NCBI RefSeq assembly: GCF_963675165.1 | Contig: NC_087377.1 | Coordinates: forward strand, 13,326,198-13,390,197 | Length of the DNA stretch: 64,000 nt | Source of the DNA: Halichondria panicea | Taxonomy: Eukaryota; Porifera; Demospongiae; Suberitida; Halichondriidae | Reading direction: 5' to 3' | In this document: piece after piece, positions 17,991 through 40,109 of the stretch | Position numbering within the stretch: position 1 is the first letter of the stretch | Layout: the number at the start of each line of letters is the position of its first letter | Program-made: the position numbers and the translations under genes | The notes under the pieces: model-generated | Seen by the model: only the letters and a program-made list of their open reading frames with translations | Database searches by the model: none | What the model was told of the DNA's origin: nothing

Positions 17991-19018
17991 CTTGAGTTGT
18001 GTCTTTGTGTATTTCAAGTCACCATTTTTCAACTTACAAGCAACTCAATTGTCTTCAAAGGATTTATATATAGTATCTACGAATACTTGACGATAGTGTG
18101 TAACCTTCCACACAACGAGTCGTTTTTGGCCAACGTTAGCTGTTCTGATAATAAAATTGAGCACTCAAACATTCCTTTTAGTAAGTTTTCAGATGATGTT
18201 GTGCTGCCATAACATATAATACATAATGACATAATTATAAAAAAAATACTATTTTCAGGTACATACGATATTCAAAACGTAGAAATCATTGTGAGAGGAA
18301 ATAATGTCACTGTCACTTGCTGGTTTGCTAGAGGGACAACTGCTCGTGGCTTTAAGATTGACATTTTGGGCGTTGAAAATCGTTTAGTGATTTCTATGTT
18401 TGTCAACATAAATGAAACTTGTGTAAAAGGTTGTTCATACAGTGCAGATGTGGAGGTTGGTAATTTCACCACTACTGTTTATAATTGGGAACAAGATGGT
18501 GGTATACGCAGAGTGTACAGTAGAGAGATTGTTATCATAACCCTCAAGTCCAACTCAACAACAGAGAGTACAGTGATTACAAACATTACTGACTTAGACC
18601 CCATTACAACAGTACACTGGGGTAATTATACTGTAACTTCAACCATAATCGGTGCAGGTGTTATTGGAGGTTGTTCTGGTGGAGCAGTTTGCTGCATTAT
18701 ATTAATTACTGTAACGTTAGCAGTGCTGTTCAAGAAAAGAAGGAGAAAATCAAAGAAAAGTGAGTAGATTTCCCAAGATAATTACTTTAATAAGCCATTG
18801 CACCATTGCACCACATATATACAGTGTTCGAAGTCAGCAACTGTGAAGCATACTCTATTGTATTGAATATGAGAAAAAATGAAGCGTATAATGAAATTTG
18901 TATTGCCAACCATTCACAAATAATTGCTACGGAGCCTCATATGTATGATGTCATAGAAAATGCTCAAGGATCACCTACACTACCTACAGAACCTTTGTAT
19001 GCAGAAATACGTGTATAG
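17991..19018 (+). CDS. Single-pass receptor with multi-tyrosine tail
   Basis: Exons 17991-18180, 18259-18759 and 18825-19018 join in phase 1. The ectodomain has two beta-sandwich-like units with Cys and N-glycosylation sites, but I cannot assign them firmly to Ig or FN3. The membrane segment runs TIIGAGVIGG to LAVLF and is followed by KKRRRKSKK. The tail has four Y-x-x-aliphatic motifs: YSIV, YNEI (8 residues after the first, ITAM-like spacing), YDVI and YAEI, and ends YAEIRV. Such motifs usually bind SH2 proteins after phosphorylation; that role is inferred. The signal-peptide exon was not found; it should end in phase 0 before 17991. It is the first of a plus-strand series of receptor genes but its tail differs from theirs. 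Confidence 0.72.
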
Positions 19019-19639
19019 GTAGACAGTTTTATACTGAGAGTTTGAATGCATGCACTATAACTTGTTGACATTTACTTTATTCACATCATGACTGCATGAC
19101 TAACGATAATAGTAGAATACTGAATTTTGTTGAATGCTAAACAAGCTTGTTTTCATATAACTGTAGGATGGTAACCTGATGTATAGGTACAATACAAAGA
19201 CAGCTGGCATCGTGTCATGTGCTTGAAAGCTTGTCACGTACGTGTACACATAAGCCGTTTAAAGATAATAAGATACTATAAATAGCATTCCTATTGTTAA
19301 ATTTCGATGCTGATGCATTATGGCATAACAATTGCATGGTGTAACAATCAATCCCATATATGCATGCAGGACAATGATGAGCTATAAACTAACCTTACCA
19401 GATACCGACAGTGTACACAATTTAATGTAGTAGAAGAGCAACTATGATGCACTAGCTGCTTCATAATTATAGCTACAAGTTAGGTACACAGTGAGAGTCG
19501 CGACTAACAAACAATAGATCATGTTGGCATTTAATTTATCATAATTATGCCTATAATTATATCAAACTGTGGTGACACGGGGGTGCTGGGGATTTTTGAT
19601 CCATTATACCCCAACATACAACTTTTCGTTCCACCTCGA

Positions 19640-19985
19640 TATCTAGTCTCGATCATTTGGTTTGGCACGGATTGCTAGCTTGATCTTTACTGCACAAAAC
19701 TTGACCTGAAATACTATTCTGTATGCTGGCCAGTACTGGCTGCCCTAAACTTTGATGGTTTTTAATGTACGTTTATTACGGCCGGATATGATGTTTTGGG
19801 TATTATTTTGGCAGATAATATTGGATTTACACATAGAAAGCAAAATGAGAGCAAAATGATCTGACAGAACTGCAAAATTTGTCATTAGATTCGAGGTATA
19901 GGGACCGCTTTTTAGCCGCAGCTATATTCGGAAATGCAGCCATCTCGCCAAGGGTGGCCATATTTAACAAGAGTCTACTGTACAT
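19640..19985. repeat. Truncated pogo/Tigger-like element
   Basis: It matches the element at 39091-39486 over long stretches (ATTACGGCCGGATATGATGTT, TTTAAGCCGCAGCTAT-type blocks) and keeps the right terminus ending GAGTCTACTGTACA. The left terminus is missing. Confidence 0.75.
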
Positions 19986-20067
19986 GAAAACTTTGTAAGC
20001 TATAATTATGGACAACAAACGTAATATATATATATATACAGTCGTAGCGGTAATCTCAGCTTACAGT

Positions 20068-20208
20068 TCAGAAGGGCATGAGGGAGGCAGTGTTTTGGCT
20101 GTCACCTTGTCAACGTAGGTGAGAGAGAGGGGGTGGGAGGGGGCGAGGCTTCGTCATACTTGTACGTGGGGTTCGGTACAGCATTCATGTTCAACTCTAC
20201 TGGCAGTG
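20068..20208 (-). pseudogene. Relic of the proline-rich tail exon
   Basis: The minus strand reads VELNMNAVPNPTYKYDEA followed by a Pro/Ser run and then a stop, clearly related to the exons at 47532-47692 and 62910-63063 (VELN...PNT.YKYD). The conserved splice donor and the TDDSPGL motif are lost. Downstream flanks (TATTGCCTGCAAATATGAG at 20395 onward) also match 63405 onward, so it belongs to a duplicated segment. Confidence 0.7.
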
Positions 20209-21046
20209 TGAGTGAGTGGATGGAGTAGAGATTGGTTATTGAATGTTCTATACCCATTATTTTTTTGTGCCACATCCGTAGTGTACTATATATACTTCAT
20301 GCTTTTGTCACGTTGCATTAGCGACCTTAGAGTACAGTGTATACACACATGCAGCCATTGTGCTTGTCCTATATTGAGTTCAGCATGTGAACTATTATTG
20401 CCTGCAAATATGAGGTCATACACAGAAAGCATGTGTCAGCAGTGGACAGGTGCACACTAACCATTGTTCTCAAACTATAAATCACGTGCAGCTATTGTAC
20501 TGTGGTTTCTTTGTTTTGAACTGGCTTAGCGGTTTTTTAATTTTGGCGTTTCAGGCGCGTCACAGCGATGATGTTATGGAACATTTGATTTGGCGATCTT
20601 CAGTAAAATTGACCAAATTGCCAGATTTTCCAGTTATACTGTAGCACTGACAGCTATTTTGAATATTGGCTGCAAAAAATTATTACTAATAACTGACTAT
20701 TATAGCTATAGCCCAAAATGGACATGCAAATAAACAATAGCCATAATTATCAGCAGTATTGCCTAATTGTTGATGTGTACAGTTAGATACACACTTACCT
20801 CTACTTGAACATCAATTGACATTGGCTACTGTGAAAGTAGAAGATCAAAGTGTGCAAGATGACAGCAACATGTACAGTAAGTTTATACTCACGACAATTA
20901 ATAATTGCTGGATCTATAGTATGCATGAAGCTAATAAGAAACTAGACTATTTTGTCTATATTAAAGCTATATATAATTATACAGCAGATCTATCATAGAG
21001 AAGTTGATACTGGATTATGTATTAGTTTTATTGCCCAGCACGAGTA

Positions 21047-21127
21047 AAACATGCCATATATTGCACTGGAGCAGCATAAATGCAGGCCCTCGGGCATTAT
21101 GCCATCCAGTGCAATATATGGCATGTT
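21047..21127. repeat. Inverted repeat, ACATGCCATATATTGCACTGG arms
   Basis: Arms of about 21 bp around a 38-bp centre. A scrambled relative (AGTGCATATAATCCAGTGC, GTGCAATATATGG, CATGCCATATA) lies at 23850-23930. This is a small dispersed hairpin element. Confidence 0.8.
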
Positions 21128-21451
21128 GCACGAGGGCGCCTTCAATAACTAACTTGTTGCCCAATGACGTCAAACTCTTCTGATTGGTTAAGTTTTTTCC
21201 CTATAAATTGTCATGTGTTTTTGAGTGAATTTTAGTGGATTCATGAATTCCATAATAGGTTTTGTTCCCACAACTAATGAAAAGGTACACCCCGCCAACC
21301 CATGTAGTGGGAAATGTTATTAATATCATTCACATGCAGCTCCCCGCTGGGACTCTTAATTAGTCCTGTGCTGAGCTCCATTCCTAGCTAGTGTGTGCAT
21401 CTAGTGTATGTCACCAAGAGCTTGGAAGCTTTCAAAGGCAGTTTTTTTTGA

Positions 21452-21749
21452 TAGCCTCGAGACCAGGCCGTTCGTTGTCTGAAAGAACGCCTGGTCAAGT
21501 TCCAATGTAGAACTTGTCTAATTGTTCCAGGAATTTTTTGGACCGATAATTGCCTGCAACAACCATATACTTATCCGTGAATATCATTACGATGTATGCA
21601 GCTAGCTAGTATTGTTGTGTTTACAGTTTCCGATAATCATGTTCACAACCTACTCAAGCCTAACCACTCACTGACTCAGGTAGACGAGTTCTACATTGGA
21701 ACTTGACCAGGCGTTCTTTCAGACAACGAACGGCCTGGTCTCGAGGCTA
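21452..21749. mobile_element. Foldback element, TAGCCTCG ends
   Basis: Perfect 63-bp arms (21452-21514 and 21687-21749) start TAGCCTCGAGACCAGGCCG. Flanks TTTTTTTGA and GTTTTTTAA agree at 7 of 9 positions, consistent with a decayed 9-bp target duplication. It is the same terminal family as 31576-31692, 46914-47012 and 51729-51786. Confidence 0.82.
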
Positions 21750-22462
21750 GTTTTTTAAGTGTTGTATTATCGTTTCGGCTCTATATCTAGTGGCTTTGTG
21801 TACGTTCTACAAGGAGAGGCTGTGACTACAGTACAACATATTTAAAGCTGGGCATTGTATGTAGGTAAAATCAAAGCCACTTGGCTTTAGGTTGGTAAGT
21901 AATAATTATTCATTTTTGCCTTAATTAGTAGTAAGCTGGTTTTGAAGCAGCCCATGCATTTAGAAGTCATATCAAGGATTAAAATTAATGTATAGGTATA
22001 CATGTCTCTTTGTATTCATTGATAGTTAGTTCATTGTATCGGCACAGTAATTTACGACAGAACTTTGCTACATTTCCCTATCATGTTTGTGACTGTACTG
22101 GAAGTACTCAACGGTACAGCCAGAACTCCTCTCAAGAATTTACTGTCGAAGCTGCTTTTTGCTGCTTGGAGGGTCTCACTAACTATTGCTACTACCTTGC
22201 TGTGACTGTTCCATAGCCATTGGTTAATACATGGAGCTCAGTAGCCAGTTTATAGCAGTACTAGCTAGAAGTATGGGACAGAGGAAATAAAAGAAAATGT
22301 TGACCGAAACACGGATCGTCAATGCTATTTACATTGCGTTTCCCACCCTAATACTTATAGATATATATATAAGAAGGGAGAGGGATGGGAAACGACTATG
22401 GTTTAGGCTAGCATCTATACACTTCAAGCAGCAAATTTTATCAATGTACTTCATTGTTTTAG

Positions 22463-23534
22463 GTGGTGGTATTATTTGTTGCTACAGTTACAGGACTAGT
22501 GCTTGGTATAGGTATGTACAATTAATTATCATAGTTGTCCTTAATTTACTTGTTACGTATGATGTTTTTTATAGGTCAGGTGGTTGAAATTGCTTCAGAT
22601 TTAGACGCAGCCGGTCGTAACTTTTCCTGCACTGGTGAAGTTGTCACATACACTTGTTGCGCTCAAGGAACCACCCTGTTTGTACAGTTTCCACCATTAA
22701 TAAATCAGCAAGCATTCATTAGCAGTGATCCTGTTCCTGATGTTCAGACATTCCCTACTGCTCTGAATGTTATTCTGACCCTGACAAGTGGAATGCCCAA
22801 TTTTACTGCAAACCTGCAAATCAGAGTGTCAAGTGATCTGCAGCAGATGAATTTTTCCTGTTCTACGGACATTTCTGGCCCTCAGAACGATTTTGTACTA
22901 ACACTAATTCATGAAGGTAAGTTGTCATGCCGTATATATAGCGGGTAACTTTCGTTGGTGAAAATTTCGTATGAGTGAAATATTTCGTATAGGCTAAATA
23001 TTTGTACAGCTCAGAATAGTGACATAGAACCTACGAAAATGTCCACCATACGAAAATATCCCGCTATAATTATATGATTATCCTTTTATATACAGCACAA
23101 ATTGAGCCACCTTCCACTGTGACATTCTCTGGAGACACGACAGTATCATGGACCCCACCTTTGAACCCCCAGTTTGATATTGATTATTATATTGTGAGAA
23201 TTTACGTGGATGAAGTGTTGTACACGACTAGGAGCTCTCGTGACAATGGTCTGGACGTTACGTTGCCATCTGGAGAAATCACTGCTGATGTCCGTACTGT
23301 TAGCACTTGTGGCAGCATTAGCGCTGCGCGACAGTCAGTGGGATCAGTCTCAGGAGGATGTGCAAATGGATCAGTCTCCATTGCAGGTTTGTTTGCTTCT
23401 GATTTGTCTGTATATGCCCAGATCACAAAATTGTTAGCGCTGAATCAAAGCACTCAATCTTAAAAATCTATTCTCTCTCCGTAGCTGGCTTTTTGGTTCC
23501 CATTGTTCTCATCATCATCGCTGTTATCGTATAG
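22463..23534 (+). CDS. Ig-FN3 receptor truncated after its membrane segment
   Basis: Exons 22463-22511 (hydrophobic VVVLFVATVTGLVLG, signal-peptide-like), 22575-22916 (Ig-like domain with VTYTCCAQG and MNFSC), 23096-23386 (FN3-like: PPSTVTFSG, VSWTPPLNP, YYIVRIYVD, ADVRTVSTCG) and 23485-23534 (membrane segment AGFLVPIVLIIIAVIV, then TAG). All joins are phase 1. Past the stop the frame continues YWLLTNWEKKK to a donor (GTACGG), which looks like a former membrane-proximal tail; a nonsense mutation may have removed the cytoplasmic part. The initiating Met exon was not found: the frame is closed by TAG just before 22463. It is likely surface-displayed, with unknown ligand. Confidence 0.68.
22933..23067. 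repeat. Intronic inverted-repeat element, TATAGCGGG family
   Basis: It begins TATATAGCGGGTAACTTTCG and ends CGAAAATATCCCGCTATA, lying in the intron between the Ig and FN3 exons. It is one of at least eight related copies in the window. Confidence 0.82.
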
Positions 23535-25056
23535 TACTGGCTATTGACCAATTGGGAGAAAAAAAAGGTACGGTCCTAACGGATTTGTAATGGAGTTTGT
23601 TTTGGGTGATAGTTTTTAGGTTGATGTGTTTTTCTCACTGTATATATAGATTTGAAGAGAGTCCTGAAACAAGTCTGTCAAGCTAGGACCTTTAGTTAAC
23701 ATACATTATGATACAGTTTGTATTATTAAAATGAGTAATTATGGTACTGTCCTATAAAAGGGACCAACTGAGTATTGGGTGGGATGGTGGGGCATAAATC
23801 CCAAATGGATATCTCTTAAAGAAATCTACTGCATTTACACACAGTGCAAGTGCATATAATCCAGTGCATTATGCCATATAATGCAGTGCAATATATGGTA
23901 GCCATGGCAGTGATGCAACATGCCATATACTGAGCAATGGATTGCTTTGATCTGCCCACTCACTGGGCAACAAGCATGTGTATAATTATATTCAGGCTTT
24001 GGGACACGTTAACACATACATAGTTATACACCTCATTTTACATTTAGCATTTAGCTAATCATAATTATATATATATATACAAGCCTCACCCTCGGTTTAT
24101 AGGCATACAAAAATGAAAAAACATTTTATTATCTCATAATTGCATGCTTGAAATAGTTCTTAGTGCATGTAACAATCTCAGAGGTGTATATACGTACGGT
24201 CGATCAACAATATGACATTATTTATATAAGTAAAAAACTGCGCACAAAAATATACCTTTTCATAAGTGGCAAAAAATTTGCGCAAATTGCCATTTTTTTA
24301 GGATGACCGAGGTGACACTTAACTTATGGTGGCGGTGTAATTAGATACATCAACCTACGACAGCTTGTTTTTACTTTATATATGCAATATCTATACTCAC
24401 CACAGTGCATGCTTTAGCTAATTGCTTAACTTGTGTCAATCAGGACCTTTCTTTTTCTTGCATGTGTCACAGCCAGCCATAGTCACCCCTTTTTCTACTT
24501 TGTTCAGAAATCCTTTGCGGCTTTAATTCGAGGAACTTCACTACATAAGCACTAGCACTAAAACTGCATGGATCCCTGCAGGCTTCCTTGCTGGTCCTAT
24601 AGTCCCAGCATAGCCTATTATAGGTCCCAGTGAGTGATGTGTATTACCAAGAGTTCATGGTATGACCTATCACTGTAGACTAAAAACGTTTTTAATTTAG
24701 CTTTACGCTACTGCCTTGGTGAGGTTCATGGTTAAACTGCATGTTGCCTTGTTTATAATAACATTCTAACATTGCCTTGTTTATAATAATGTACCAGTAT
24801 TAATTTTACTTTTTTTATAGTTGCATAATATATATATAACTACTTTTATAACACTCTATAGTTGTAGGACATAATTATATAAATGTCTGGTTTAGCGCTC
24901 TAGTTCTGGACTGTCTATATATAGTAGTCGACTATAGACATTGAAAGTGTCTATATAGACTATAATTATGTTGTTATAATGATCGTTATCTATTGTTCTA
25001 GTTTAATCTGCACACCAGAAGTCAATTAGCATTATTTATTAGATGCAGCAATTGCA
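23535..25056. other. Gene-free stretch
   Basis: AT-rich with short palindromes and TATA runs. It holds the scrambled CATGCCATATA element (23850-23930) and nothing else that I can support. Confidence 0.6.
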
Positions 25057-26949
25057 ATGCAGCTACAAACAGTTATTATTTGCAGCACCCAGCTGTTCGT
25101 ACTGGCTGCTGGTGAGTTTTGCATGTGTGCATGTGGCTAGCTATAGCTATATAAAACTTGATATAGCTATAGCTATACATTTACATTTTTGCAGCTACTC
25201 TGACATCCACTCCCACTGTGGCCTGTCCTGGTGACACTGTCATCTTCACCTGCACTCTACCTGGTAGTCTCATACGATGGAAAGTCACTCCTCCAACGGT
25301 TCAAGGACCTTCGTTTAGATTGACTTTAATATTCACCGGCAGTGAAAATTTCGCTGTGACTGAGGGTAATCCAGCATTCCGAGGTGTTCTCACTGACTCC
25401 AGCGGAGGAATGCTCACTGCCACTCTCACCTCACTGTCTGAGGCCTCCATTGTAGAAGGTACTATGGTGTTGTGTGAGGGAGCAAGCTCACAAGAGGGTC
25501 CTCTCACTATCACTGTGGCTGGTGAGTGACTGATGGAATGCATACATGCATGTACACATGCACTGTCAGTTTATCAATACACTCATGCACAGATTCACCC
25601 TCCCCTCCACTGAATCCAAGGGTGTCCTCCTCAGCCCAAAACCAACTCAGCTCCTCTATTATCACTCTGGAGTGGGACCCTCCCTCCTCTACTGGTGGTG
25701 TGTCTGTCAGCTATGTCCTCATCATATCCCTAAAACCTCTCTCCGGGTCACCAGTCACCGTGGAGACTACCTCAGCACAGATAACTGTCTCATACAACAC
25801 TCCCTACAATGTGACAATCAGAGCTGACAACTGTGCTGGAATGAGTAATGATGTGATGATGATGATTCTTCCTATTGGTTAGTTTCTATTATAGCTGATC
25901 TCTTAAGTGTATAATATTGTTTGCTGCAGTTACCTGCCCCTCCAACCCAATACCTGCGAACAGAGTGACCATCAATGGTGCTCCTCCACCTCTCTCACTA
26001 GTAGGATCAACACTAAGCTTCACTTGCAATGGAGAGACAGTACCAGCAACCTGTGAGAGTGATGGACGATGGTCACCTGACCCCACCACTTACATCTGTC
26101 CCTCGGGTAAAATTAATGGTGAATCACTGTCATAGTTGTTACTATATAGCCCCTCCTCTCAGATGTCACCTGTGGCTTTCCTGTCGCACCTTCCAGAGGC
26201 AGTGTGGACGTTAAGGGCCGGACATCACCCTTTTCGATAGACTCAGTGGTAAAATTATATTGTGACAAGGGACTATTCCCAGCTGGTGATATGTCCAGTA
26301 CGTGTGAAAATGTGGGTGGAGTGGGAACTTGGAAGCCAGACACGAACATCACATGCAGAGTCATGCCTGGTGAGAATGCCATTGGCTAAATATTTTGTGT
26401 GTATTATTACATCTAATTTACATTTCACCGCAGTCAACTGCTCTCTACCCAAAAAGCCATCCAACGGAACTGTAGTAAACTATGAGAGGTTGAATGAGAC
26501 AGTGTCGGAGGGAACAGTGCTGACTTACAAGTGTGACAATGGACTCTCACTGGCTGGACCCAACACCATCACTTGCACTAATGCTGGTGTCTGGAGTATT
26601 GAGCCTGAGGCAATCGTGTGTGTACTTGAATGTGAGTAGCGCTTTTGTTAACGGTTGATATCCTATCAATTTGTTTACCTTCTCCATAGATGATATTTCC
26701 ACCACCTTATCTACTGGTGCTGCTATCGTTATAAGTATGATCATCACTTTCATTGCGACTCTAGCCACTGGATTCCTCACTGGACTCTTAGTGATGCACC
26801 TTTGCTCCCGTAAGAAGGCAGCTGAAGGACAAGCTAACGTAGGACCCACTGTACCAGCTGGTCCTGTTTATGAGGAGGTGTCACCCAAAATGGAAATTAA
26901 ACTGAAAAGTAACCAAGCATATGAACAGTCAACCAGTGTATACGTATAG
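25057..26949 (+). CDS. Receptor A: signal-Ig-FN3-sushi x3-TM-Tyr tail (intact)
   Basis: Seven exons, all phase 1: 25057-25111 signal peptide (MQLQTVIICSTQLFVLAA), 25195-25521 Ig-like (CPGDTVIFTC, RW, VLCEG), 25593-25877 FN3 (PLNPRVSSS, LEWDPPSSTGG, YVLIIS, YNVTIRADNC), 25930-26106, 26163-26369 and 26434-26631 sushi/CCP domains with their Cys and W (FTCNGE...TCESDGRW; SSTCENVGGVGTW; LTYKCDNGLSLAG), and 26690-26949 for the membrane segment (IVISMIITFIATLATGFLTGLLVM), SRKKA stop-transfer and a short tail with PVYEEVSPK and NQAYEQS. No stop or frameshift was seen. It is inferred to be a cell-surface recognition or adhesion receptor. The tail tyrosines suggest SH2/PTB signalling. It is the best-preserved member of the local family. 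Confidence 0.88.
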
Positions 26950-27296
26950 GACTGTGAAAGTTTAGCATTAATCCAGTGTCTGCATTTATAGCTTATCAGT
27001 TGTATGCGATGTATATATGTATTATAGAGCCAAGGTTTTATACATCAACTTATAATTATAGCGTCTAGATCTGTTGTTTGTAATATTAACACTTGAGAAC
27101 TGAATGTAAACAGTAACACAAATCAATGTGTACATCTAGCTGTTCATTAAACCATCACAACTCATGACATTATTTTTATGTCAGCAATATTTATTTAACA
27201 ATTAAAGAAATATATATATACAGTCAAAGAGTAATCTATGATTTGTTAATTGCACATGCATAAACACTGATATACATTCTTGATTGCAGCAAGGGT

Positions 27297-27349
27297 ATAG
27301 AAGAAGGTTCTGTATGCACAGAGCACAGTACAGAACCTTCTTCTATACA
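27297..27349. repeat. Perfect hairpin, 20-bp arms
   Basis: TATAGAAGAAGGTTCTGTA at left and TACAGAACCTTCTTCTATA at right, about 14 bp apart. No neighbouring gene explains it. Confidence 0.85.
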
Positions 27350-28171
27350 AAGCTAAGTAACTTCTATAGACAGTACAGATCTAGGTCTAGGTAGATTGTT
27401 CTGGATCATTACTGTTCCAGTGGATACTCCCCTTAGATTGAAGGTTCATCTGCATGGAAATTGAATATCTCTACCTTCCAGTTGTCTATAATTTTATGAC
27501 CTTTAGTAGACCGTCTGAGAGGCTGTATGACTTGAGGTTGAAGTTATTCTTCCTGGTTTTGTGACTCTTCTGGCTGAGCTGGAGATGAGGATATCATCGG
27601 CATTTCCTTCAGTTTGCAGCATAATATAGCTAGTCGTTCGTCTTCTATAATTATAGTCTCACTTTGTAAGTTATATTTCCTTATTTTGATACAATCACTC
27701 CAGGCGTCCATAGCGAATTGGTACCTGCTTCTCTATAAAATAAGTACTATAGGAATACATGAAGAAACGCTCTTATTATACCTACACTATCAGGGAGCAT
27801 GTGATTCAGTATATATACGGATGATCCCATGCAGAGCCACTTTGTAGACTTCTACATGTATGTAAAACATCACATGAATCGTTTCCGTTTCCAATCCTTC
27901 TTCCTCTTCTATCTATAATTATAATTATTATATATGAATGACCACCACATTACCACCATATTATTTATCTACCACACATTCAAGCTATGTTACCTTTATC
28001 CCATACCCCACTGCACATGCATACCATAGTTATTAAACTAGATCTAAGTTGCAAAATTAATGTTCATCAGTTACAATCTTTACTTTTGACATGCAGGAAA
28101 ACTCCAGATTGGAACTTTAGAACAACTCTATATACGGTAAACAACAACAAGCACAACGTTATACCGTCAGG

Positions 28172-28635: not shown

Positions 28636-30060
28636 AGGCCTCATTAGTGTCCAACACGAGTGTGGCGTGTCCTGGAGAGGCAGTTCTGCTCACATGCTCT
28701 GTGCCCGGTATTGCATTGCAATGGAGAGTAGATCCTTCAGCAGAGTCTGGGTTGATCTCAGTAGTACAAACGATATATTCTCACTAGCTGGTCGAAGGGA
28801 TACATTTAGATCAGAAGTGATCATGTTTGAGGCTGTTCTTGTAAGCAATGATGGTGGAACTCTGACGTCCACCCTCATTAACCTCAGTGAAGTGTCTGTA
28901 CTGGATGGTAGTATCGTCACCTGTACTGTGACTGTTAGTGGTGGTGCTATATGCCAATAGAGTCACATAAGACCATTATAGTTGCTGGTGAGTATCATTT
29001 CTCATGTAGCTATATAGCTGGTGATACACACATGCATGCAGTTGCTCCAACCTATCCAGTCAACCCAAGGGTGTCACACACTCTAAACCAACCCAGCTCC
29101 TCCATTATCACTCTAGAGTGGGACCATCCTTCCTCTACTGGTGGTGTGTCTGTCAGCTATGTCCTCACCATCTCCCCAACACCCCTCTTTGGGTCACCAG
29201 TCACCATGGAGACCACCTCCACACAGATTACCGTCTCTTACAACACACCCTACAATGTGACTGTCAACTGTGCTGGAATGAGTCAATTGAGTAAGCCTTA
29301 TTCCCGTCATTGACTGCAATTTTATAGTCATAAAACATACGTACTCGTTCCTTATCATACTTTAAATCAATGCAGTTGTATGCCTAACATGCACCGTCTA
29401 CTGCTGCTGGTGTGATCATCACCAACACACCTCCTGTCACTATTGGTGGATCCATGCTCACCTTCACTTGCAGTGGAGACAATGAAGTGAGGATCTCTAC
29501 CTGTGGCAGTAGCGGGTGGTCTCCTGACCCTGGGACCTTTGACTGTGGTAGCCCAGTTACAGGTATCAAATTAATGTTGATCTCATGCATGTTGCATTTC
29601 ACCACTGTGACAGTCAACTGCTTTCTACCCAAGGAACTATCCAACCATATTATTATAGTGGACTCTGAGCTGTTGAATGAGACAGTGTTGGAGGGAACAG
29701 TGCTGACTTACCAGTGTGACAATAGACTCTCACTGACTGGACCCAACAACGTCACTTGCACCAATGCACTGAGCCTGAGGCACTCATGTGTGTGTCACCA
29801 ACTGAAGGTGAAGGCCATCATGTTTGTACTTAAATGTGAGTTATGGTTCGTAATCTCGATTTCACAGATCCTACTGCCACCTCCCTATCTATTGGCGTAG
29901 TTGCTGCTATCAGCGTAATTATTACTTTCTTTATGACTGTCATTCTTGGATTCCTCACTGGACTCCTAGTGATGCACCTTTGCTCTCGTAAGAAGGCAGT
30001 ATACTCTCTAGCAGCTAAAGGACAAGTTCAGGTTCGTAATTGTTTGCTATCTACTATATA
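28636..30060 (+). pseudogene. Receptor B: broken Ig-FN3-sushi-TM paralogue
   Basis: It is collinear with receptor A. The Ig exon (28636-28987) changes frame at least twice: ACPGEAVLLTC is in one frame, VSNDGGTLTSTL in a second and HKTIIVAG in a third. FN3 exon 29042 onward (SSSIITLEWDHPSSTGG) has lost two residues before NCAG. The first sushi exon (about 29374-29550) begins out of frame with a stop and then reads LTFTCSGDN and GWSPDPG. The second (29612 onward) loses its last Cys/W region. The membrane exon near 29868 (AISVIITFFMTVILGFLTGLLVM, SRKKAVYS) runs into a premature stop at 30059. The exon order survives, so decay is recent, with several independent lesions. Confidence 0.85.
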
Positions 30061-30068
30061 AAATCTCA

Positions 30069-30745
30069 CAGTTTCTACTGTCGCTCCTTTGTCCTCCACT
30101 TCTGCAACTGTCGCTATCAGTGTCATCATTATATTATATCCTCAAGCCTCTCAAGTGGGATCTAATATGACTATTCCATCTCATATACATTTGGTGCATG
30201 GGTGTTTTAATTTGGCGGTTTGGCGGATTTTATCGAAGATCGCCTAGTTAAAAACCATACGCCAACTGCAGGGTGTCACACAGTATTGAGAGGAGGAGGG
30301 AAATGAAAGAGCGGATCCAGGAACTTTGAACGGGATGGTTTAAATCAAAATGTTTTTTCAAGACTCTGTTACTGTACAACTGCCTGGGAAAAAGTTTAAT
30401 CGAGGTGTATTCTGATGGGTTTTGGGGTGACCTAAGCACTCTCATTATAATTATTACCTGAATGCAAATTTTAGGGGGGGGGGGGTTTCAACCAGAGAAT
30501 ATCCCCTTTCCCCTGCATGTATGACACCCTGCCAAGTCAGTTCAAATGGCTGATTCGCCAAATAATTATAATACCCGCCAATTTTTCAGTTCTTCTACGG
30601 TATAGTTTCTCCTGGCGCCCCCCTATCGATTTCCTCGCTTGGCTCCTGGTTAATGCTGTCGTAAGAAACCAGCTAGCTATAGAGAAGATTGAACTGAATA
30701 CTAACCATGCAGGCGTATAGGCCGTTAGCATTGTGAAACTCGTAT
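30069..30745 (+). pseudogene. Remnant TM/tail exon split by insertions
   Basis: 30069-30170 resembles the start of the receptor membrane exon (TCCACTTCTGCAACTGTCGC, then ATCAGTGTCATCATTATA), and 30625-30745 resembles its end (GATTGAACTGAATACTAACC, then CATTGTGAAACT, as in receptor C). About 450 bp of unrelated DNA lies between, including the element at 30269-30533. It implies a further lost receptor copy. Confidence 0.7.
30269..30533. mobile_element. Inverted-repeat element, CAGGGTGTCA ends
   Basis: Ends CAGGGTGTCACACAG and CTGCATGTATGACACCCTG enclose a G-run (30474-30486) and a C-rich block. A second copy is at 42851-43038. No coding capacity. Confidence 0.78.
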
Positions 30746-30803
30746 AGCATTAAATTATTATGCCTTGAGGCGTATAGCCACACGAGAGATACGGTAAAGC
30801 TAG

Positions 30804-30804
<1 letters not shown>

Positions 30805-30882
<78 letters not shown>

Positions 30883-30898
30883 TGCGTGTGTGTGTGTC
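30805..30898. repeat. (TG)n microsatellite inside a dispersed repeat
   Basis: About 90 bp of TG, changing to TGCG near its end. Flanks (GAGGCGTATAGCC before; ATTTGTGGATTTGCAAA about 75 bp after) also flank the TG tract at 45419-45577, so the microsatellite travels with a larger element. Confidence 0.85.
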
Positions 30899-31575
30899 TA
30901 TTCTAGCTGCAACTGCCCAACGGCTACGATGCAATAACAAATACAGGTCCAGCCACGTTCTCTCTTGGATTTAATTTGTGGATTTGCAAACTAAAGCTTC
31001 TTTCTCGAGTTATGGCTAAGTCTCGCGGAAGCCAGACCCAAAAATAGGGTCTGGCCAATTTCACCATACATTAACCGCGCCACAAATATAGTGGAGCTCG
31101 AAGTAGCTGATAAGTGTTTGTATAAGTTGTGAAACCACACTGTCCACACAGCTGCATCTTCTAGCTAATAGAAGTATGTGGTTTTGTACATTGTTCTAAC
31201 CACTTGACTAATCACTTATGAATGCAAACAATCACGCGAGACCGCTGCACAAGTAGGTAGCTATATGCATGTCAAGTAGCGCTATAGCTATTTGTTAGCT
31301 ACAGGAGGCAGAAAAAGAGCTGAAAGCTGCATGCATGTACTGCTATAGAAGCAAGCCCTTGTGAACTCCGACACTCATTTCAGATACACCCCTTTTCGAA
31401 TTTATTGAGCGGAAATGCAAAATACTTATTTAAAACTTCTACATTGACATTGTAGATCTATATAGCTACATGCTAGTTCTATCCTCCTTGAAGAGATCAT
31501 TCATCAAGCCATATCAGATATAGACTTCTGTACTGCTCTTCTATATTAAATGTGTACGCATTCAACAATAATTAC

Positions 31576-31692
31576 TAGCCTCGTTCCCAGGCCGATCCGT
31601 CTCCAATTGAACGCCGATCCGTCTCTAATTGAACGCTAGGTCGAGTCGACCTAGCGTTCAATTGGAGACGGATCGGCCTGGGAACGAGGCTA
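31576..31692. mobile_element. Foldback element with exact 9-10 bp target duplication
   Basis: A near-perfect hairpin starting TAGCCTCGTTCCCAGGCCGA and ending TCGGCCTGGGAACGAGGCTA, centred on GGTCGAGTCGACC. It is flanked on both sides by CAATAATTAC (31566-31575 and 31693-31702). One inner segment (CGATCCGTCTCCAATTGAACG) is duplicated. A relative is at 46914-47012. The 9-bp duplication points to a Mutator-like mobiliser (inference). Confidence 0.9.
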
Positions 31693-31948
31693 CAATAATT
31701 ACATGATTATACAAAGCAAACTACCTCTTAGCAAAAGCAAATCATGGCGAGAGGCATTAGCCCAGCGTAGTTTGCAACACTCGTTATTCTGGCATTTTGT
31801 TTGTTTTATAGTTGTATATGTGGTTGACTTCTTCAACATTCTGATGTGGTTTTTCTGACTTCCTCAATAGAGGGTGTGTTTCATATCATAAGTGATCAAT
31901 AAACTTAAGCTTGTTGTTGTTGTACCAGCTAGTTATATAGCTCCTGCA

Positions 31949-34838
31949 ATGCAAGTACAGACAGTTCTTATCAGCATGCAGCTGTTTTCTCTTGCTGCAG
32001 GTAAGTTAAAATCCATATTGCATGTGTTCACTGGAACACACAATTTTTCTCAGCCACACTGACATCCATCCCCCCTGTGGCCTGTCCTGGTGACACTGTC
32101 ACCTTCACCTGCACTCTGCCTGGTAGTCTCATACGATGGACGGTCACTTCTCCACAACTACAAGTATTCACCGTAACTGTGGACAGCAACACCAATGAGA
32201 CACAAGGTGATCCAGCATTTCGAGGTGTTCTCACTGACTCCAGAGGAGGAATGGTCACTGCCACTCTCACCTCACTGTCTGAGGCCTCCATTGTAGAGGG
32301 TACTATGGTGGAGTGTTTGGGAGCGAGCTCACAAGAGGGTCCTCTCACCATCACTGTGGCTGGTGAGTTCTTTGTTTGTATTAAACATATAAGTTTTAAC
32401 ATTGTGGAACAAGTATAATTAATGCACCCACAGATCCACCCTCCCCTCCACTGAATCTAAGGGTGTCCTCCATTCTAAACCAACTCAGCTCTTCTAATAT
32501 CACTCTGGATTGGGACCCTCCCTTCTCTACTGGTGGTGTGTCTGTCAGGTATGTCCTCATCATCTCCCCAACATCTCTCTCCGGGTCACCGGTTACCGTA
32601 GAGACCACCTCCACACAGATCACTGTCTCCTACAACACACCCTATGATGTGACCGTCAGAGCTGTCAACTGTGCTGGAATGAGTCAAGAAAGTCAAATTG
32701 TGTATCTTAATTTTAGTAAGCTATTTCATGGTTGCACGTACAGATACACGCAGTGAATACATGCGTACAGTACATTGTTTAAAAGGAATGTTGATCTCAT
32801 GCAGTATTCGGCTGTGGTTCTCCTGTTGCACCATCTAGAGGAAGTGTGGACATCAGTGGTGGGACACCACCATTCTCACTGGGTTTACAGGTCATCTATC
32901 GCTGTCATGAGGGACTGTTTCCCTCTGATGTGAGGACCAGCACATGCACTGATGTGGGGGGTAGGGGAGAGTGGGTAGAGAACCCTGGGAGTTTGGTGTG
33001 CAGAGAGAGGCCAGGTATAACAAAATTATAGTCTAAATTAATTTTTCTTTTCATTTTTTGCTGTGTATATAAGTCAACGTACTGCACTGTACCTGTCGTA
33101 CCATCCAATGCTACTATATAATAGTACCAAGCTAGTGTCACAACGGCCGGTGCTATATACAGTATATTTCCTGTGCGTTGCATTTCACATACTCAGTCAA
33201 CTGCTCTCTACCCTCGGAGCCATCCAACGGAACTATAGTGGACTATGAGAGGTTGAATGAGACAGTGTTGGAGGGAACAGTGCTGACTTACCAGTGTGAC
33301 AATGGACTCTCATTGACTGGACCCAACACCATGATCACTTGCACTAATGCTGGAGACTGGAGCACTGAGCCTGCAGAGGCAATAATGTGCGTGTCACTAA
33401 CTGAAGGTGAGGATAATTAACCCGAGGCATATAGGCAACCATGGGAGTTACGGTAATCCCTATGTTTTTTTTGTCTGTGTTTTTAAGTCTGCTCACCTGG
33501 TTGCCATAGCGCCTTCGTTTACAGTACGGATAGCCTCAACGCTCTAATTAGTGGCATGCATGTTGTGACCTTGATTGAAAGCAAGCAAAAAAAGCTAAGA
33601 AGGTATACAATATGGATATGGAATTATAGTCACAAGTCGTACATGATTGTGTATACGCAGTCATGCAGCCATGTGGAGCCTTATTTTTCACGGGAAGAAT
33701 TCTTTGCTGGCTCTAGATCTACTGTGATCGAACCTATATATATACTCTGGTCCTGCATACGCAGTCATGCAGCCATGTGGAGCCTTATTTTTCATGGGAA
33801 GAATTCTTTGCTGGCTCTAGATCTACTGTGATCGAGCCTATATATACTCTGGTCCCATGCACTGCACGTCAGGTGTCCTATATAAATTATACATGTACTT
33901 GTAACACTCTAGGCCTTGATTTTTGCTAGCTGTGATCCTAACGGTCCGGGACTCCCATTGCATTTTCAGGGTTTATTTCACCTGCTTAAAATGTTCTGTC
34001 ACCCATTTGGAGCATGTAAATTTTGTACAATCATATAAATCACCTCTCAATTGCAATTAAATTTCTTACTTAGTAACTTATAACAACAATCCCTAACAAT
34101 GTGTTTGCTTAGTCACAATCAGTATACTACAATGATGTTACATCATGCAATCATGTAGCTGGTACATTGTATATCCGAGTAATCATTGTGAATTTCTCCT
34201 TTGGCGACCAGCCACCCAGGAGTCAGGGGGCTAATGCCCCCGGCCCATGTTTTGTCCCTGAAATTTGGCTGGGGAAGTTGCCACCGGCTTATCCACCAAA
34301 TATTTATTCTAGTTAAACGTTAATTATTAATTTTGTATAATTATTTTATACGAGCGAGGATCAATAATTATCAAAACCTAAATTAGATCTAGTGCTGGTA
34401 ATTATCCTTGCTAGAACGCAATAGTTAGATCGTATGAGGTCAATTTTCTGCTGATTAATTGGTTCACCCTAAAATATTCTAGTCACAGTACAACACAGTG
34501 TATACTCTAGGTGTGATATACAACTGCCTCAGGCTTCTATATATCCATTCCAATCCTCCACAGCTCCGACTGTTACAGCTGCTGCCACCCTATCAACTGG
34601 TGCAACTCTTGCCATCAGTGTTACTACTACTTTCGTTGCGTCTACTATCCTTGGATTTCTCGCTGGACTCCTAGTGATGTATTTGTTTACGCGTAAGAAG
34701 GCAGTGTACTACACAAGAAAAACAGCATTATCTGTTGTACAACCCACTAAACCAGTTGGTCCTGTTTATGAAGAGGTTTCACCCAAAGAGGAGATTGAAC
34801 TGAACACTAACCAGGCGTATGGACCATTAGGACTGTGA
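31949..34838 (+). CDS. Receptor C: signal-Ig-FN3-sushi x2-TM-Tyr tail (intact)
   Basis: Seven exons, phase 1: 31949-32000 signal peptide (MQVQTVLISMQLFSLAA), 32054-32362 Ig-like, 32434-32715 FN3, 32805-33014 and 33197-33406 sushi/CCP, 34564-34838 membrane segment (LAISVTTTFVASTILGFLAGLLVM), TRKKAVYY and tail with PVYEEVSPKEE and NQAYGPLGL. It lacks the counterpart of receptor A's first sushi exon. Many stretches are nearly identical to A at DNA level, so duplication or gene conversion is recent. The last intron is long (33407-34563) and holds a 104-bp tandem duplication. No stops or shifts were seen. Role as for A: inferred surface recognition with tyrosine signalling. Confidence 0.87.
33653..33860. 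repeat. 104-bp tandem duplication in an intron
   Basis: ATACGCAGTCATGCAGCCAT starts at 33653 and again at 33757; the two units differ at only a few positions. Confidence 0.92.
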
Positions 34839-36188
34839 AACTTCATGCTACTAATTAACTTTTGCACTAACTATCATCATATAAGTTTTCTAGCCAGTAT
34901 TATAAGTGTTTCACCTGCTATAGATCGCTAAACATTATTTTAACAATAGTATAATCTTTGTATAAAAATGTAAACATGTATACATGCATGCATGCACAAC
35001 ATTGAGAGAAGCTGCAGTTACTGTTCTGTCAAACCTGTCCAGATACCTGCAGTTAATAGTAAAGGAAGTGCATTACATCTGCCATATGAAGTTAGGAAGT
35101 ATAATTATATGTAAGCAAAAAATTTATTGTGGATGTGTGTATTATTATGGTTTGTTTATAAGAGACATTCCATGTCGAGTTACCACAAACAAAATAATGT
35201 GCACCCCCTCAGATTTCAACGAAACCTGGCATATACACATACACACCTTTTTTTTCCATATAATTTTATTAGTCGAATGAATCAGCCGCACATCTCAGAG
35301 AGGAATTACGTCTGAGTACTCTCTACGTAATGTCATGTCACAATGGAATGTATTACGACGTACACTGTACAAGCTGACAAAACCATAAAACCATGATTAT
35401 TATAACTGTGCCACATCCGCTATCTCTTGTTTAGCCACAACATTTGCTTGCTGCTCAACCGCACGTGAAGTTTCATTATTTACCGCCTCCTATTCAAGTC
35501 ACCTGATACTTAATGTCACGTTGGAATTAAGAGTGCTCAGACGGTATCCTTTAGGAAGGGCGACTGATTCATGAGACAAATGTTGTGTAACCCCATAATA
35601 ATGTCATATGGCTTCTTAGCCTTAAATTCACTATAATTATTTTGGTGACGACCCGGTTCATAAAGCATTAACTTCTGCCATGATTGATATAGGACTGTAC
35701 CACCGTACTCTTTATGATAATTATGATATGATCTTTCAGGTGACATGTTTAAAGGGGGTGGGCACTCGTCAAAGTTCATTATTCAATATTGTAACTCAAA
35801 AATGACGTCTTTAGTTACTATTGTCCGCCTTTTATAACTTAATTTCGTGATGGGGATCAGAAGATATGGGCATTGCAATATAAAAGTGAACTGCAGTTAT
35901 TGACACGACTGTGGGTCATTCCATAGGAATTTCCTATAGCTAAAGGGTGACCTTTCAGAATTTTCCGAAGCATCACGTATAGATAGAGCTAATAATTAAC
36001 ACACATAAGAATTATTGCTTCTGAGATAAGGCCACTTCTAAAAGAGAAACAACTTATGATCAGAGTGTTTCCAGAGTGTATTCTTGTAGCTTATGCAACA
36101 ACTAGGGTTTGTGTGGCCAGATTATGGGATAACACTAAAAGTTGGTTAAACATTTGGTTTGAAACAACTACTAAATGAAAGGTATACT

Positions 36189-36344
36189 GTATAGCAAATA
36201 ATTTTTGTTGGTGGACATTTTCATACAAACTATCCATTTGTATTCGTACAGGTCAGGATGGTGACGTTGAATGAAACATTTTTCAGTTTTAATTTTTGTA
36301 GTCACTGATACGAAAATGTCCACCATACGAAAATAACCCACTAT
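36189..36344. repeat. TATAGCGGG-family inverted repeat
   Basis: TACTGTATAGCAAATAATTT at left; CACCATACGAAAATAACCC then ACTATA at right. It shares GAAAATGTCCACCATACGAA with the copy at 22933-23067. Confidence 0.75.
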
Positions 36345-37204
36345 AAGGTAATTGGCAGAAATGATGCTCTATAGCATATAGGTGGCCGGGTCACCAACAT
36401 TTTGGTGAATTTTGAAGGACTCGTAAATAAGAAGCCATAATTATGATACATGGGGCTAAATTGGGTGCGGTATGTATGTTTAGTTGGGGGTGCTCATTTT
36501 TTTGTGTTGACTAAATTGAGGAATGTCCCATGAACGAAGTACTTTATAATTAAGTGACACAAATTGACACAATGTATACATGGTTGGAAAGTTGGACTTG
36601 AGCCTATGTCATGCCATACAGTGCTATCATTATACATAGACAGAAGCTAGACATTACATACGCAAAGACTCACGTTGGATTATGTTGTTCTATTCTCCCC
36701 AGCAGCTCAGAGTGAAGTGAGACAGACCACTCCAGCAGACTGCACCAGGGCATTATCACTGCTCTGTGAGGGGGTAAATGTAGTATCTCTACATTATCAA
36801 TAATATAGGAAACAAGGACACATTTAATTTATACCACATGTACAAAATTAAGTACCCTTATCACACACATCTTTGTACATGATCAGTACACCTAATCTAC
36901 CCAACATCAACATACCTTTATCCCATACCCCACTACACCCTCAATCACTTAGCATACCCACACACATCTCACACCCTCACACACCATTCTTCTCCCACGG
37001 CTCTCCCGGCTTGTGATAGTGTGAGTCCACACATCCTCCCCTCCTCATTTTGGGGGCCAGTAAACAACACGAGTACATCTGCTGATCTGTGTGGGCCGTG
37101 TCGTCATAGATACGAGGCACCACCCCAATACAGCCAGTCCAAGATCAATACCAGAGGAACTGAGGAAGGGGGAGGAAGAACTGTAGTAAAATAATATGCT
37201 TCTT

Positions 37205-37424
37205 ATACCGTACAGTGGGAAATTTTTATGAGGTGCGTTTCGAGGGCACGGACAGAATACGGGAAAATTAAACCTGGGATAAACTCCCAGCACTGGTATT
37301 CACATGCAAAGCTATGTGAGTGTGGTTTCCTGGAATTGAAATGCGATTATTAGAACTCACGAACATTTATGCTGAGGGCTCTGGAGCTAAATAGCAAACA
37401 TTTCCCGCTATTATTATACGGTAG
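37205..37424. repeat. TATAGCGGG-family inverted repeat
   Basis: Begins TACCGTACAGTGGGAAATTT and ends ATTTCCCGCTATTATTATACGGTA. The interior (CTGAGGGCTCTGGAGC) is the inverse of part of the copy at 60948-61188. Confidence 0.85.
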
Positions 37425-37994
37425 CTTAAAACACGATCAGAATTAACATTAAAGCACATCCGCACACAATCTTTCAGACAGCTGTTCAGGTAGTAACATA
37501 GTGGAAAGTAAAGCTCAATGCACAACAATATTGATTGCAAAGCAGCAGCTTACAAAGTTAAAGAAAGAGATAGAGAAATTTATAGCATTTTATATAAGTT
37601 AAGTACAATATGGAGATAAGACAAGGAATGTAGTGGTCACCCACAACTTGGTGATCTGTTACAGAACACAAAGGATTCGGAAGGTGATACACTCCATACT
37701 AGTTAAACTGTAACAGGAAAAAGTTTCTTAATGGGGCTTTCATACTTGTATAGTGTTGTTTTCACATGGTCAGAAGCAGAGATAATAAAAGCCGCTCATG
37801 GTATCGATGCTAACACAAGAGCACTGACTTGTACTTGTATCTCTGAGCAAAATTGGCGAAAGTAATTTTAACCTCATGTGCGTAATCACGTATCAATCCC
37901 TTGTATATAATTATGGGGGATAAAACATTGATGCAAAAGCCCCTGTATGGACCGGTGAGTGATAATTGATGCCGTAACAATGCAGGAATAGCCA

Positions 37995-38062
37995 ATGACC
38001 TCTTACTAAACAATGAATAACGTTAAAATTCGCACTTATTCATTGTTTAGTAAGAGGTCATT
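37995..38062. repeat. Perfect hairpin, 27-bp arms
   Basis: AATGACCTCTTACTAAACAA then TGAATAA at left; the exact inverse TTATTCATTGTTTAG then TAAGAGGTCATT at right; loop about 14 bp. It lies just upstream of receptor D. Confidence 0.9.
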
Positions 38063-38226
38063 TGCTTATTAATTTTTTATTAGTAATTTACAAGCTTTAT
38101 AGGTCTAGGAATTGTAACATTGGTGCATGTGATACACTGACCGTTTTCATGTAATCCCTTTCCTTCGATGTGCTATCATTCTATAGAATAGGCAGAGGCT
38201 GGTTTAATTCTAGTCCACTAACTGAG

Positions 38227-40109
38227 ATGACATTAGAGATATTAAAGATCACTGGACTTCTTATGATTTGCTTTCTGGCTGGCTTCAGCACTGGTAAGAC
38301 TGACTATTCAATTATAGATTTCCTCATTGCTGCATGTTTCGTAGAGCCCAATATTCAGTGAGTGTGGAGAGACCATGTCCAATGGAAACAGTCACTTTCA
38401 CCTGCACTGCTCCTGTTTTAATTATTTATTACACAGCCTCTCCGGATCCAATGAACTGCACAGCTTCACTACTCCCACCATGGAATGGCACCATCAGTGG
38501 TCATTCAGTACCAGCTATTCCCGGTACACAAGTGACCTTCCAGTGTGACAACGGACTGTTCCCTGAGGGTACAATGAATGTCATCTGTCTAGCTACAGGA
38601 GAGTGGGACAAAAATCCTTGGGAGATCGTCTGCAAAATTGAACCTAGTAAGTTACTTATTTCAGTAATGGGCATCCACTATCCCCTGTACCCAGTTTCGT
38701 GTATCCTGCCTGCCCCTCGACTCAATGGAGCATTACTCAACACCACGTCTCAGAATACTAGCCAATGCGAGGGTTCAGTTATTACCTTCCAATGTGATCC
38801 TGGGTTCTCACTGGTTGGTGCAGCGACTGCCACTTGTAACAACTCTGGTCTCTGGGATCCTGACCCGGCTCTATTGGAGTGTTGTACGTACGCATATGAG
38901 TAGTCATAAACTAGCTGGTACAACGATATACCGTAAATGCGCGAAAATTTCAAGGCATGCACTTACAAATATACCAGAAACACTCCCAGGCCACGCCTTC
39001 AATCTTTGCACGTTATAGCAGATAAATTAGCAAAAATTAAGCCCCTCGAAAATTTGGCACTGTACTGTATAGCTCAAGGTACATTTATATACAGTATAGA
39101 CTCTCGCTATTCTGGCTCTCTGAAGTATGGCCACCTCGATATATACCATTTGGTTTGGCACAGATTGCACAAAACTCACCCTGAAATGCGGCCACTCGCT
39201 ATATTCCGTATACTGGCTGCCCCTCACTAGGTTTTAATGTACGTTTATTACGGCCGGATATGATGTTTTGGGTGTGGTTTGGCAGATAAAATTGGATTAC
39301 ACTTAAATATAAGAGCAGAATGATTCATTATCTTCATTATCCTCGAGACAGACCCGCAAAATTAGTCATTAGATTCGAGGTAAGGTTGTTTTTAAGCCGC
39401 AGCTATTTTCTGAAATACAGCCACCTCGATATTCCGGCCAAGCTGCACTGTCCCAAGGGTGACCGGATTAACGAGAGTCTACTGTACATACTAATTTAAT
39501 TATTGTTTATTGATTATTGATATTTATGGCACTTAATATTAAATTGATATGATAGAGAGGTTAATCTTTTGTTTGGAAGGTTATATAGTTTAAGTAGGGA
39601 ACTTCAGGGAAGGAAGCCGCTCATGGTATCGAGGCCGCAAAAAAACACTGACTTTTGAGCAAAATTGGCGAAAATAAAATTTAACTCTTGAAAATTAACA
39701 TGTTCATACACAATTATTATACTTGACATAATTTGTATACCTCATACAACACAGTACTCTGATTGTGATAATTGCCTATGATTATACAGGCTTCAAGTTA
39801 TAGTGCTCTATTTGTTGTCCTAATAATTATTGCCAATCCTTCACAGCTCCGACTGCTACCACCACCCTATCAACTGGTGTAACTGTTGCCATCGGTGTTA
39901 CTACTACTTTCGTGTTGTCTACTCTATTTCTCGCTGCACTCCTAGTGATGTACTCGTTCACGCGTAAGAAGGCAGTGTACTACACAAGAGAAACAGCATT
40001 ATCTGTAGTAAAACCCACTGAACCAGTTGAACCAGTTTATGAGGAGGTGTTACCCAAAGAGGAGATGGAACTCCACACTAACCAAGCGTACGGACCATTA
40101 GGACTGTGA
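38227..40109 (+). CDS. Receptor D: short form with a fused Ig-start/sushi exon
   Basis: Exons 38227-38293 signal peptide (MTLEILKITGLLMICFLAGF), 38359-38646, 38695-38883 and 39847-40109, all phase 1. The second exon opens like the Ig exon of A and C (CPMETVTFTCTAP) but passes straight into a sushi domain (VTFQCDNGLFPEG...GEWDKNPW), so it appears fused or internally deleted. The next exon is a second sushi domain (ITFQCDPGFSLVG...LWDPDP). There is no FN3 exon. The last exon has the membrane segment (VAIGVTTTFVLSTLFLAALLVM), TRKKAVYY and tail PVYEEVLPKEE...NQAYGPLGL. No stop within the exons. The long last intron holds two transposon remnants. Functional status uncertain but the frame is open throughout. 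Confidence 0.8.
38929..39068. repeat. TACCGTA inverted-repeat element in receptor D intron
   Basis: TACCGTAAATGCGCGAAAATTTC at left (first 20 diagnostic) and CTCGAAAATTTGGCACTGTA at right; interior TTTGCACGTTATAGCAGAT as at 28172-28393. Confidence 0.8.
39091..39486. mobile_element. Pogo/Tigger-like non-autonomous element
   Basis: Ends TACAGTATAGACTCTCG and CGAGAGTCTACTGTA with inverted sub-terminal blocks (GGCCACCTCGATAT and GCCACCTCGATATTCCGG). TA at both tips fits TA target duplication. It lies in the last intron of receptor D; a truncated copy is at 19640-19985. Confidence 0.8.

Follow-up and report, generated by a model that had tools for sequence, protein, structure and literature searches.

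A single-chromosome cluster of candidate recognition receptors with exchanged Ig-like heads and a conserved tyrosine tail in the sponge Halichondria panicea

The genome of the sponge Halichondria panicea (assembly GCF_963675165.1; 131.5 Mb in 39 contigs) harbours on contig NC_087377.1, C1 below, a stretch of 64,000 nucleotides (C1:13326198-13390197, hereafter the window) in which a segment of 22 kb, positions 17,991 to 40,109, carries tandem genes for receptor-like proteins with immunoglobulin (Ig)-like, FN3 and sushi domains. Relatives of these genes, searched exon by exon within the same genome, indicate that the segment is a small sample of a multi-megabase region holding well over a hundred related receptor genes, referred to as the A/C/D family after three genes of the window. 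The locus is characterized by its copy number and order, a conserved tail, the exchange of heads between genes, recent segmental duplicates and products of decay (genes B and D of the window). The preferred reading, to which a probability of roughly 0.65 is assigned, is that of a single-chromosome superlocus of germline type-I recognition receptors, which would have evolved by birth-and-death and by recombination between heads and tails and would serve the recognition of self and non-self or of microbes. The standard gene product is predicted to begin with a signal peptide and a variable Ig-like head, to continue through FN3 and one to three sushi domains, and to end, beyond a membrane span, in a short tail that carries two conserved tyrosines, the first in YEEV and the second, after 13 residues, in YGPV/L.

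The scale of the locus emerges from searches with single exons. The Ig exon of gene A found 126 matches, 124 on C1 and two on C6; a class II head found 121, of which 120 lie on C1 and one on C32; a class III head found 76, all on C1 and mostly at 13.95–14.54 Mb. Merged, the three head classes account for 290 places on C1, weak matches and fragments included, and 286 of these fall within 11.2–14.95 Mb. The tail exon of gene C gave at least 150 matches, 149 on C1 and one on C7. The union of three queries with the membrane/tail exon, together with gene A, yields at least 183 places at C1 11.249–14.928 Mb, a few with internal stop codons; the total is a lower bound, as each query scored the best 150 of approximately 300 candidates. 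These places are distributed over the plus (143) and minus (40) strands with a median spacing of 7.1 kb, and 170 of the 183 have an Ig head 0.9–6.5 kb upstream, where random placement expects 67.6. The match on C7 (L042, C7:3598000-3600400) is the only family tail off C1 among the matches listed and is accompanied by an Ig fragment, FN3 and two sushi exons. The class II head at C32:2551-2853 is perhaps an unplaced piece or a haplotype of the C1 locus. The interval C1:13.95-14.54 Mb is a zone almost purely of class III heads, in which few A/C/D-family tails are detected.

The plan of the family is displayed in full by gene A (25057-26949; the genes described here from the window are all on the plus strand), which is complete and open throughout, with seven exons and 502 residues. 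A signal peptide exon (25057-25111) is followed by the Ig (25195-25521) and FN3 (25593-25877) exons, three sushi exons (25930-26106, 26163-26369 and 26434-26631) and the membrane/tail exon (26690-26949); the six introns are all GT-AG and all phase 1. Its C-terminal tail (26860-26949; GPVYEEVSPK... NQAYEQSTSVYV) is a variant of the family-wide YEEV-x13-YGP(V/L). Gene C (31949-34838) has a class I head, two sushi domains and an open frame of six exons: signal peptide 31949-32000, Ig 32054-32362, FN3 32434-32715, sushi 32805-33014 and 33197-33406, and membrane/tail 34564-34838. Its five joins are all phase 1, its two sushi exons correspond in alignment to sushi two and three of A, and the tail exon is 98% identical to one at C1:12013053. 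Gene D (38227-40109) is an open frame of four exons with three phase-1 joins, comprising a signal peptide (38227-38293), a class II Ig fragment fused to a sushi domain (38347-38646), a second sushi (38695-38883) and the membrane/tail exon (39847-40109). The open-frame models of C and D each contain one splice site re-chosen from the first models, a donor in C and an acceptor in D. Compared by blastn with its relative L157, gene D matches up to 38415 and resumes at 38447, lacking approximately positions 311-1199 of L157, that is, the remainder of the Ig, the FN3 and the first sushi. The missing modules are thus a product of deletion. Gene B (28641-30060, limits approximate) is a remnant: its Ig exon is frameshifted and lies in two frames, an FN3 and two damaged sushi exons follow, and the membrane exon is devoid of the conserved tail end.

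An initial annotation made from the letters of the window had described six genes or remnants on one plan. This holds for A, C and D, with B as a remnant, but not for the first two genes of the segment, which are treated below. Three of its other statements are borne out: that joins are nearly all phase 1; that paralogues differ by whole exons, with three sushi in A, two in C and two without FN3 in D, a pattern that recurs in the wider family; and that some exons are alike where introns differ, the exons of A and C being 61–89% identical and the three introns compared 44–60%, against a baseline of 60 unrelated 75-mer pairs with a mean of 44% and a maximum of 67%.

The wider family was sampled as 40 fetched whole genes plus L010-L013, the sisters of gene A; the fetched genes were chosen for a class I (or weakly matching) head close to a tail, which favours standard genes. 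Nearly all of the 44 carry class I heads. By order of hits, 38 of these 44 genes read Ig-FN3-sushi-sushi-sushi-membrane/tail, some sushi hits being partial or split (for example in L132 and L150). The other six include three with a fourth sushi hit (two being one split match, one an extra fragment), L152 with two sushi, the irregular L140, and L157 with a repeated tail piece. When only hits covering at least 80% of a profile are counted, all six parts, including three sushi, are found in 30 of the 44 and two sushi in ten. A further ten genes were sampled for the absence of a close class I head by the tail: their heads are of class II in eight, class I in one and class III in one, and three sushi are present in two, two in five and one in three. 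Domain order and the FN3 domain are near constant, and sushi number varies: genes with class I heads mostly have three, those with class II heads between one and three. A fixed sushi number was considered and rejected, as counts still range from one to three when class II sushi are built into the profile. Intron phase was assessed in 48 genes or remnants (the 44 and A to D) from the best-scoring splice site in any phase at domain hits covering 85% of the profile: 233 of 252 placed acceptors and 164 of 213 donors are phase 1, and eight of 260 acceptors had no site. Module exons flanked by phase-1 introns, characteristic of exon-shuffled extracellular proteins, are found in A, C and D as well as in this wider sample.

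The identity of the modules is clearest for sushi, which Pfam recognizes in A (55.4 bits, E 8e-15) and D (54.6 bits, E 1e-14) against a cut-off of 20.7 bits. FN3 is sub-threshold (17.9 of 25 bits) but consistent throughout the family, and the Pfam scan of A gave no match for the Ig-like exon. Cys, Trp and Cys are invariant in 20 head exons. A profile of these heads run against the PDB gave antibody V domains as 58 of the 60 matches listed, all weak (E 0.04–0.4), mostly over the N-terminal half and ranked behind a xylosidase at E 0.03. Pfam Ig_2 was a sub-threshold match in four of these 20 heads, and three other models, non-Ig or bacterial, each matched once; an AlphaFold model of a head was all-beta, with seven strands, and poor (predicted local distance difference test, pLDDT, 47).

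Recombination within the locus is evident from the discordance between heads and tails. In the 30 of 46 genes that have all six exons, pairwise distances correlate between Ig and FN3 (0.63) and between third sushi and tail (0.59), while correlation with Ig is 0.33 for the first sushi, 0.15 for the second, 0.19 for the third and 0.06 for the tail; the Ig-second sushi and Ig-tail values are not significant in 500 permutations. Three pairs, L120/L156, L122/L147 and L135/L143, display the exchange directly. Their first four 150-base windows, which run from upstream DNA through the first intron into the head, are 42–57% identical, near the level of unrelated DNA (mean 44%), and FN3 is intermediate in the three pairs; from the first or second sushi onward windows are mostly 92–100% identical, in introns as well as exons, the exception being a long stretch of intron in L120 that finds no match. 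A rapidly evolving head would not by itself account for pairs of this type, because the introns share the same breakpoint. Among all 1035 pairs, 997 show near-identity in neither half and 12 show it in both. Eight show it in the 3' half and lack any 5' match, 12 show it in the 3' half and have a 5' match that has diverged, and six show it in the 5' half, their 3' halves having diverged. Head classes I and II occur together in two of the 12 tail clusters with more than one member (14 + 7 and 6 + 2), heads being assigned by coordinates and 10 of 96 tails having none assigned. Between class I and class II genes the smallest tail divergence is 4.1%; C and D, whose heads differ in class, belong to one tail cluster with tail exons 11.8% apart. 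These comparisons demonstrate different histories for Ig heads and tails, the heads having evidently been exchanged among stalk and tail types.

Duplication has also been recent. L010 and L011, 717 kb apart, differ at two of 3324 bases (99.94% identity) and share a frameshift in the first sushi; L022 and L023 are 99.6% identical. L012 is intact, as is L013 but for a two-base alignment gap at its end; gene A is 94.1% identical to L012 and 93.0% to L013 over 2050 bases. Recent segmental duplication within the locus is the likely source of such copies. The near-identical pairs would also suit an assembly artefact in which the copy count is inflated by alternative haplotypes placed next to each other. 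As an account of the locus this is very unlikely: 81 of 97 fetched tail exons are distinct at 97% identity and 55 at 95% (a share raised by fetching, which often took one per obvious duplicate pair), duplicate pairs recur with several offsets and in either direction, and gene A too has sisters at 93–94%.

At the other end of the protein the tail is strikingly uniform. In 99 tail rows, in which gene C is counted twice, YEEV-x13-YG[PS][VLIF] is present in 88, YEEV in 93 and NQAY in 96, and conservation is 97–100% at each motif position (Y, E, E, V, L, N, Q, A, Y, G, P) among 97 tails. The ratio of nonsynonymous to synonymous differences per site (pN/pS) is 0.27 over the last 26 codons of the exon, compared with 0.77 over the membrane and juxtamembrane part, and falls to 0.07 in the window around YEEV (YEEVSPKM). 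YEEV resembles the pYEEI motif bound by Src SH2 domains, and the tail tyrosines would serve as substrates of Src-like kinases and as docking sites for SH2 proteins. An immunoreceptor tyrosine-based inhibition motif (ITIM) was rejected as a label: [ILVS]xYxx[ILV] matches seven of the 99 rows by regular expression and is no family feature. YxxV/L/I is found in 98 of the 99 rows, so that both tyrosines might be read as YxxPhi sorting signals of endocytic or clearance receptors, acting in ligand uptake instead of signalling. That role is improbable, in that the whole stretch round both tyrosines is conserved, far beyond what YxxPhi needs.

Several observations weigh against a superlocus of recombining recognition receptors. 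Some of the copies could be retained alternative haplotypes. The Ig fold of the heads is weakly founded, on faint profile matches and a poor model. For most class III heads no A/C/D-family tail is detected: 54 class III head places lie at 14.0–14.5 Mb, compared with 13 tail places at 13.95–14.55 Mb. Ten of the 12 multi-member tail clusters do not mix classes I and II, and tail subtype mostly tracks head class. The immunoreceptor tyrosine-based activation motif (ITAM), [DE]x0-2 YxxL/I x6-12 YxxL/I, fits none of the 99 tail rows in its strict form and two with V allowed, and this label was rejected. Gene-wide positive selection was likewise not seen in pooled counts, the ectodomain pN/pS being below 1. 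For Ig, pairs grouped into three bands by synonymous distance give pooled ratios of 0.76, 0.65 and 0.62, with a mean of ratios of 0.98 in the closest band (the 37 closest pairs), and the other exons pool at 0.30–0.70. Eight-codon windows above 1 number two of 13 in Ig (1.07 and 1.45) and also occur in FN3 (1.03), the second sushi (1.41) and the membrane exon (1.19); one tail-exon window at 4.07, with a pS of 0.032, is regarded as an effect of low counts. The fast-evolving recognition locus of the initial annotation is otherwise supported, and on a far larger scale than claimed, but without a gene-wide excess of amino-acid change. Exon shuffling, which phase-1 symmetry permits, agrees with the whole-exon differences and takes a stronger form in head exchange, but order and FN3 are near constant and the missing modules of D reflect deletion.

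If the superlocus reading is correct, the head would bind ligand at the cell surface, with the sushi and FN3 domains as a stalk. New heads would be placed on a fixed signalling end by unequal crossing-over and gene conversion at the phase-1 introns of tandem copies, and the resulting germline-encoded repertoire would be used to recognize self and non-self or microbes. Adhesion proteins commonly contain Ig and FN3 modules, and receptors for cell adhesion or cell sorting with no immune role would share them; such a function is nevertheless improbable here, as at least 183 tail exons, duplicates 99.94% identical over 3324 bp and head exchange are unusual for housekeeping adhesion genes. A more serious contender, tentative though it is, holds that the heads bind foreign surface molecules and that the repertoire tracks symbionts and pathogens, with no part in self/non-self discrimination. 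Many divergent heads on one tail suit many ligands, and in other sponges Ig, FN3 and sushi genes respond to bacterial products, as far as the accessible parts of the reports describe (PMC6208332, PMC8242945); those bacteria-responsive genes are not tied to the A/C/D family, however, and no evidence here separates the ligands. Doubtful is the boldest form of the superlocus reading: a sponge histocompatibility or self/non-self superlocus of at least 200 germline genes in less than 4 Mb, with recombined Ig heads, a fixed phosphotyrosine tail and haplotype-specific repertoires. If true, it would be an early-branching animal's answer to the problem that vertebrates solve by V-region rearrangement.

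The segment opens with two genes of a different kind. Gene 0 (18259-19018) consists of an extracellular exon with membrane span (18259-18759) and a tail exon (18825-19018) bearing four YxxI/V tyrosines (YSIV, YNEI, YDVI and YAEI), unlike the A/C/D-family tail; its genomic copies amount to one at 98% (C1:12471002) and one weak match. Gene X (22575-23534, limits approximate and boundaries read by eye) comprises Ig-like, FN3-like and membrane exons, the last with a stop straight after the membrane span; no tail or sushi was seen in it, and it may be a receptor without a tail. Its FN3-like exon fell below the cut-off for Pfam fn3 (E 0.022), and its Ig exon has 17 matches including itself, all on C1 and eight of them weak. 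Neither gene matches any of the four family profiles (Ig, FN3, sushi, membrane/tail), and both belong to small families separate from A/C/D. X and A are neighbours at five places, where X matches (C1:11690097, 12335337, 12407653, 12475409 and 13348771) lie 2.6–7.4 kb upstream of an A-like Ig exon. Inverted repeats were seen by eye between genes at window positions 17500-17641, ~21457-21750 and ~31590-31690; by their look they are possible remnants of small transposons, similar to miniature inverted-repeat transposable elements (MITEs), and possible substrates for recombination. Other dense sushi arrays occur on C4, C9, C2 and C15, and none of the best 150 sushi matches lies inside the window. 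A homeodomain search returned nine matches, the best 49% to Antp, and no Hox gene, although an intron-split homeobox could be missed. This outcome makes a tunicate origin, raised by the likeness to Botryllus, unlikely; together with compact, short-intron genes and the genome size it suits a sponge.

Comparable systems are known in several animals. Mammalian KIR/LILR-type clusters combine variable Ig ectodomains with conserved tyrosine tails, segmental duplication and domain-loss variants, all of which have counterparts in the sponge locus; KIR/LILR differ in having other domains, smaller clusters and canonical ITIMs. The closest likenesses are to the Alr genes of Hydractinia, treated below, and to Botryllus schlosseri, where fester and FcoR are clustered type-I receptors with Ig and sushi domains, in the accessible portion of the description (PMC12065747). 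The same portion reports 53 FcoR and more than 37 new fester-family loci on several chromosomes, variable haplotypes, and tails that can carry ITIM or hemITAM. Birth-and-death of clustered Ig-sushi receptors and a YxxI/L/V core motif in the tail are features common to both animals, and uncle fester, whose 3' exons are shared with fester and whose 5' half is unrelated (PMC12065747), presents the same head swap as the sponge pairs. In contrast, the excerpted FcoR plan is a V-type Ig, one sushi, two C2 Ig, a membrane span and a long tail, with no FN3 in that description (PMC12065747). The sponge plan is Ig, FN3, one to three sushi, membrane span and short tail, and its at least 183 tail exons lie on one chromosome; the likeness drawn here is one of description. 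As the FcoR domain plan is not found in it, the A/C/D family is not filed as a member of FcoR.

The Alr complex of Hydractinia is likewise a cluster of single-pass receptors of the immunoglobulin superfamily in a basal animal, with many pseudogene-like copies, and controls allorecognition; that control is a finding for Alr only, and no FN3-plus-sushi plan appears in the accessible part of its description (PMC11067881). Large sponge repertoires of SRCR, NLR and Ig-TIR proteins sometimes include sushi and FN3 but are defined, in the excerpts available, by SRCR, NACHT or TIR domains (PMC8242945, PMC6208332). Pfam scans of A, of D minus its tail and of portions of genes 0 and X detected none of these three. 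The A/C/D family most likely works like Botryllus FcoR or Hydractinia Alr while being built differently.

In the open-access literature, covered through best-ranked titles and abstract openings and with most subscription papers outside it, no such sponge locus is described. Sponges display a highly specific discrimination of self from non-self, which the accessible part of one account takes to rest on a polymorphic genetic system (PMC5450542). An interval whose gene plan is defined and whose tail motif is fixed would be a directly testable candidate for that system. Furthermore, the mosaic of heads and tails parallels that of Botryllus fester, which would mean that this repertoire strategy either arose more than once or is very old.

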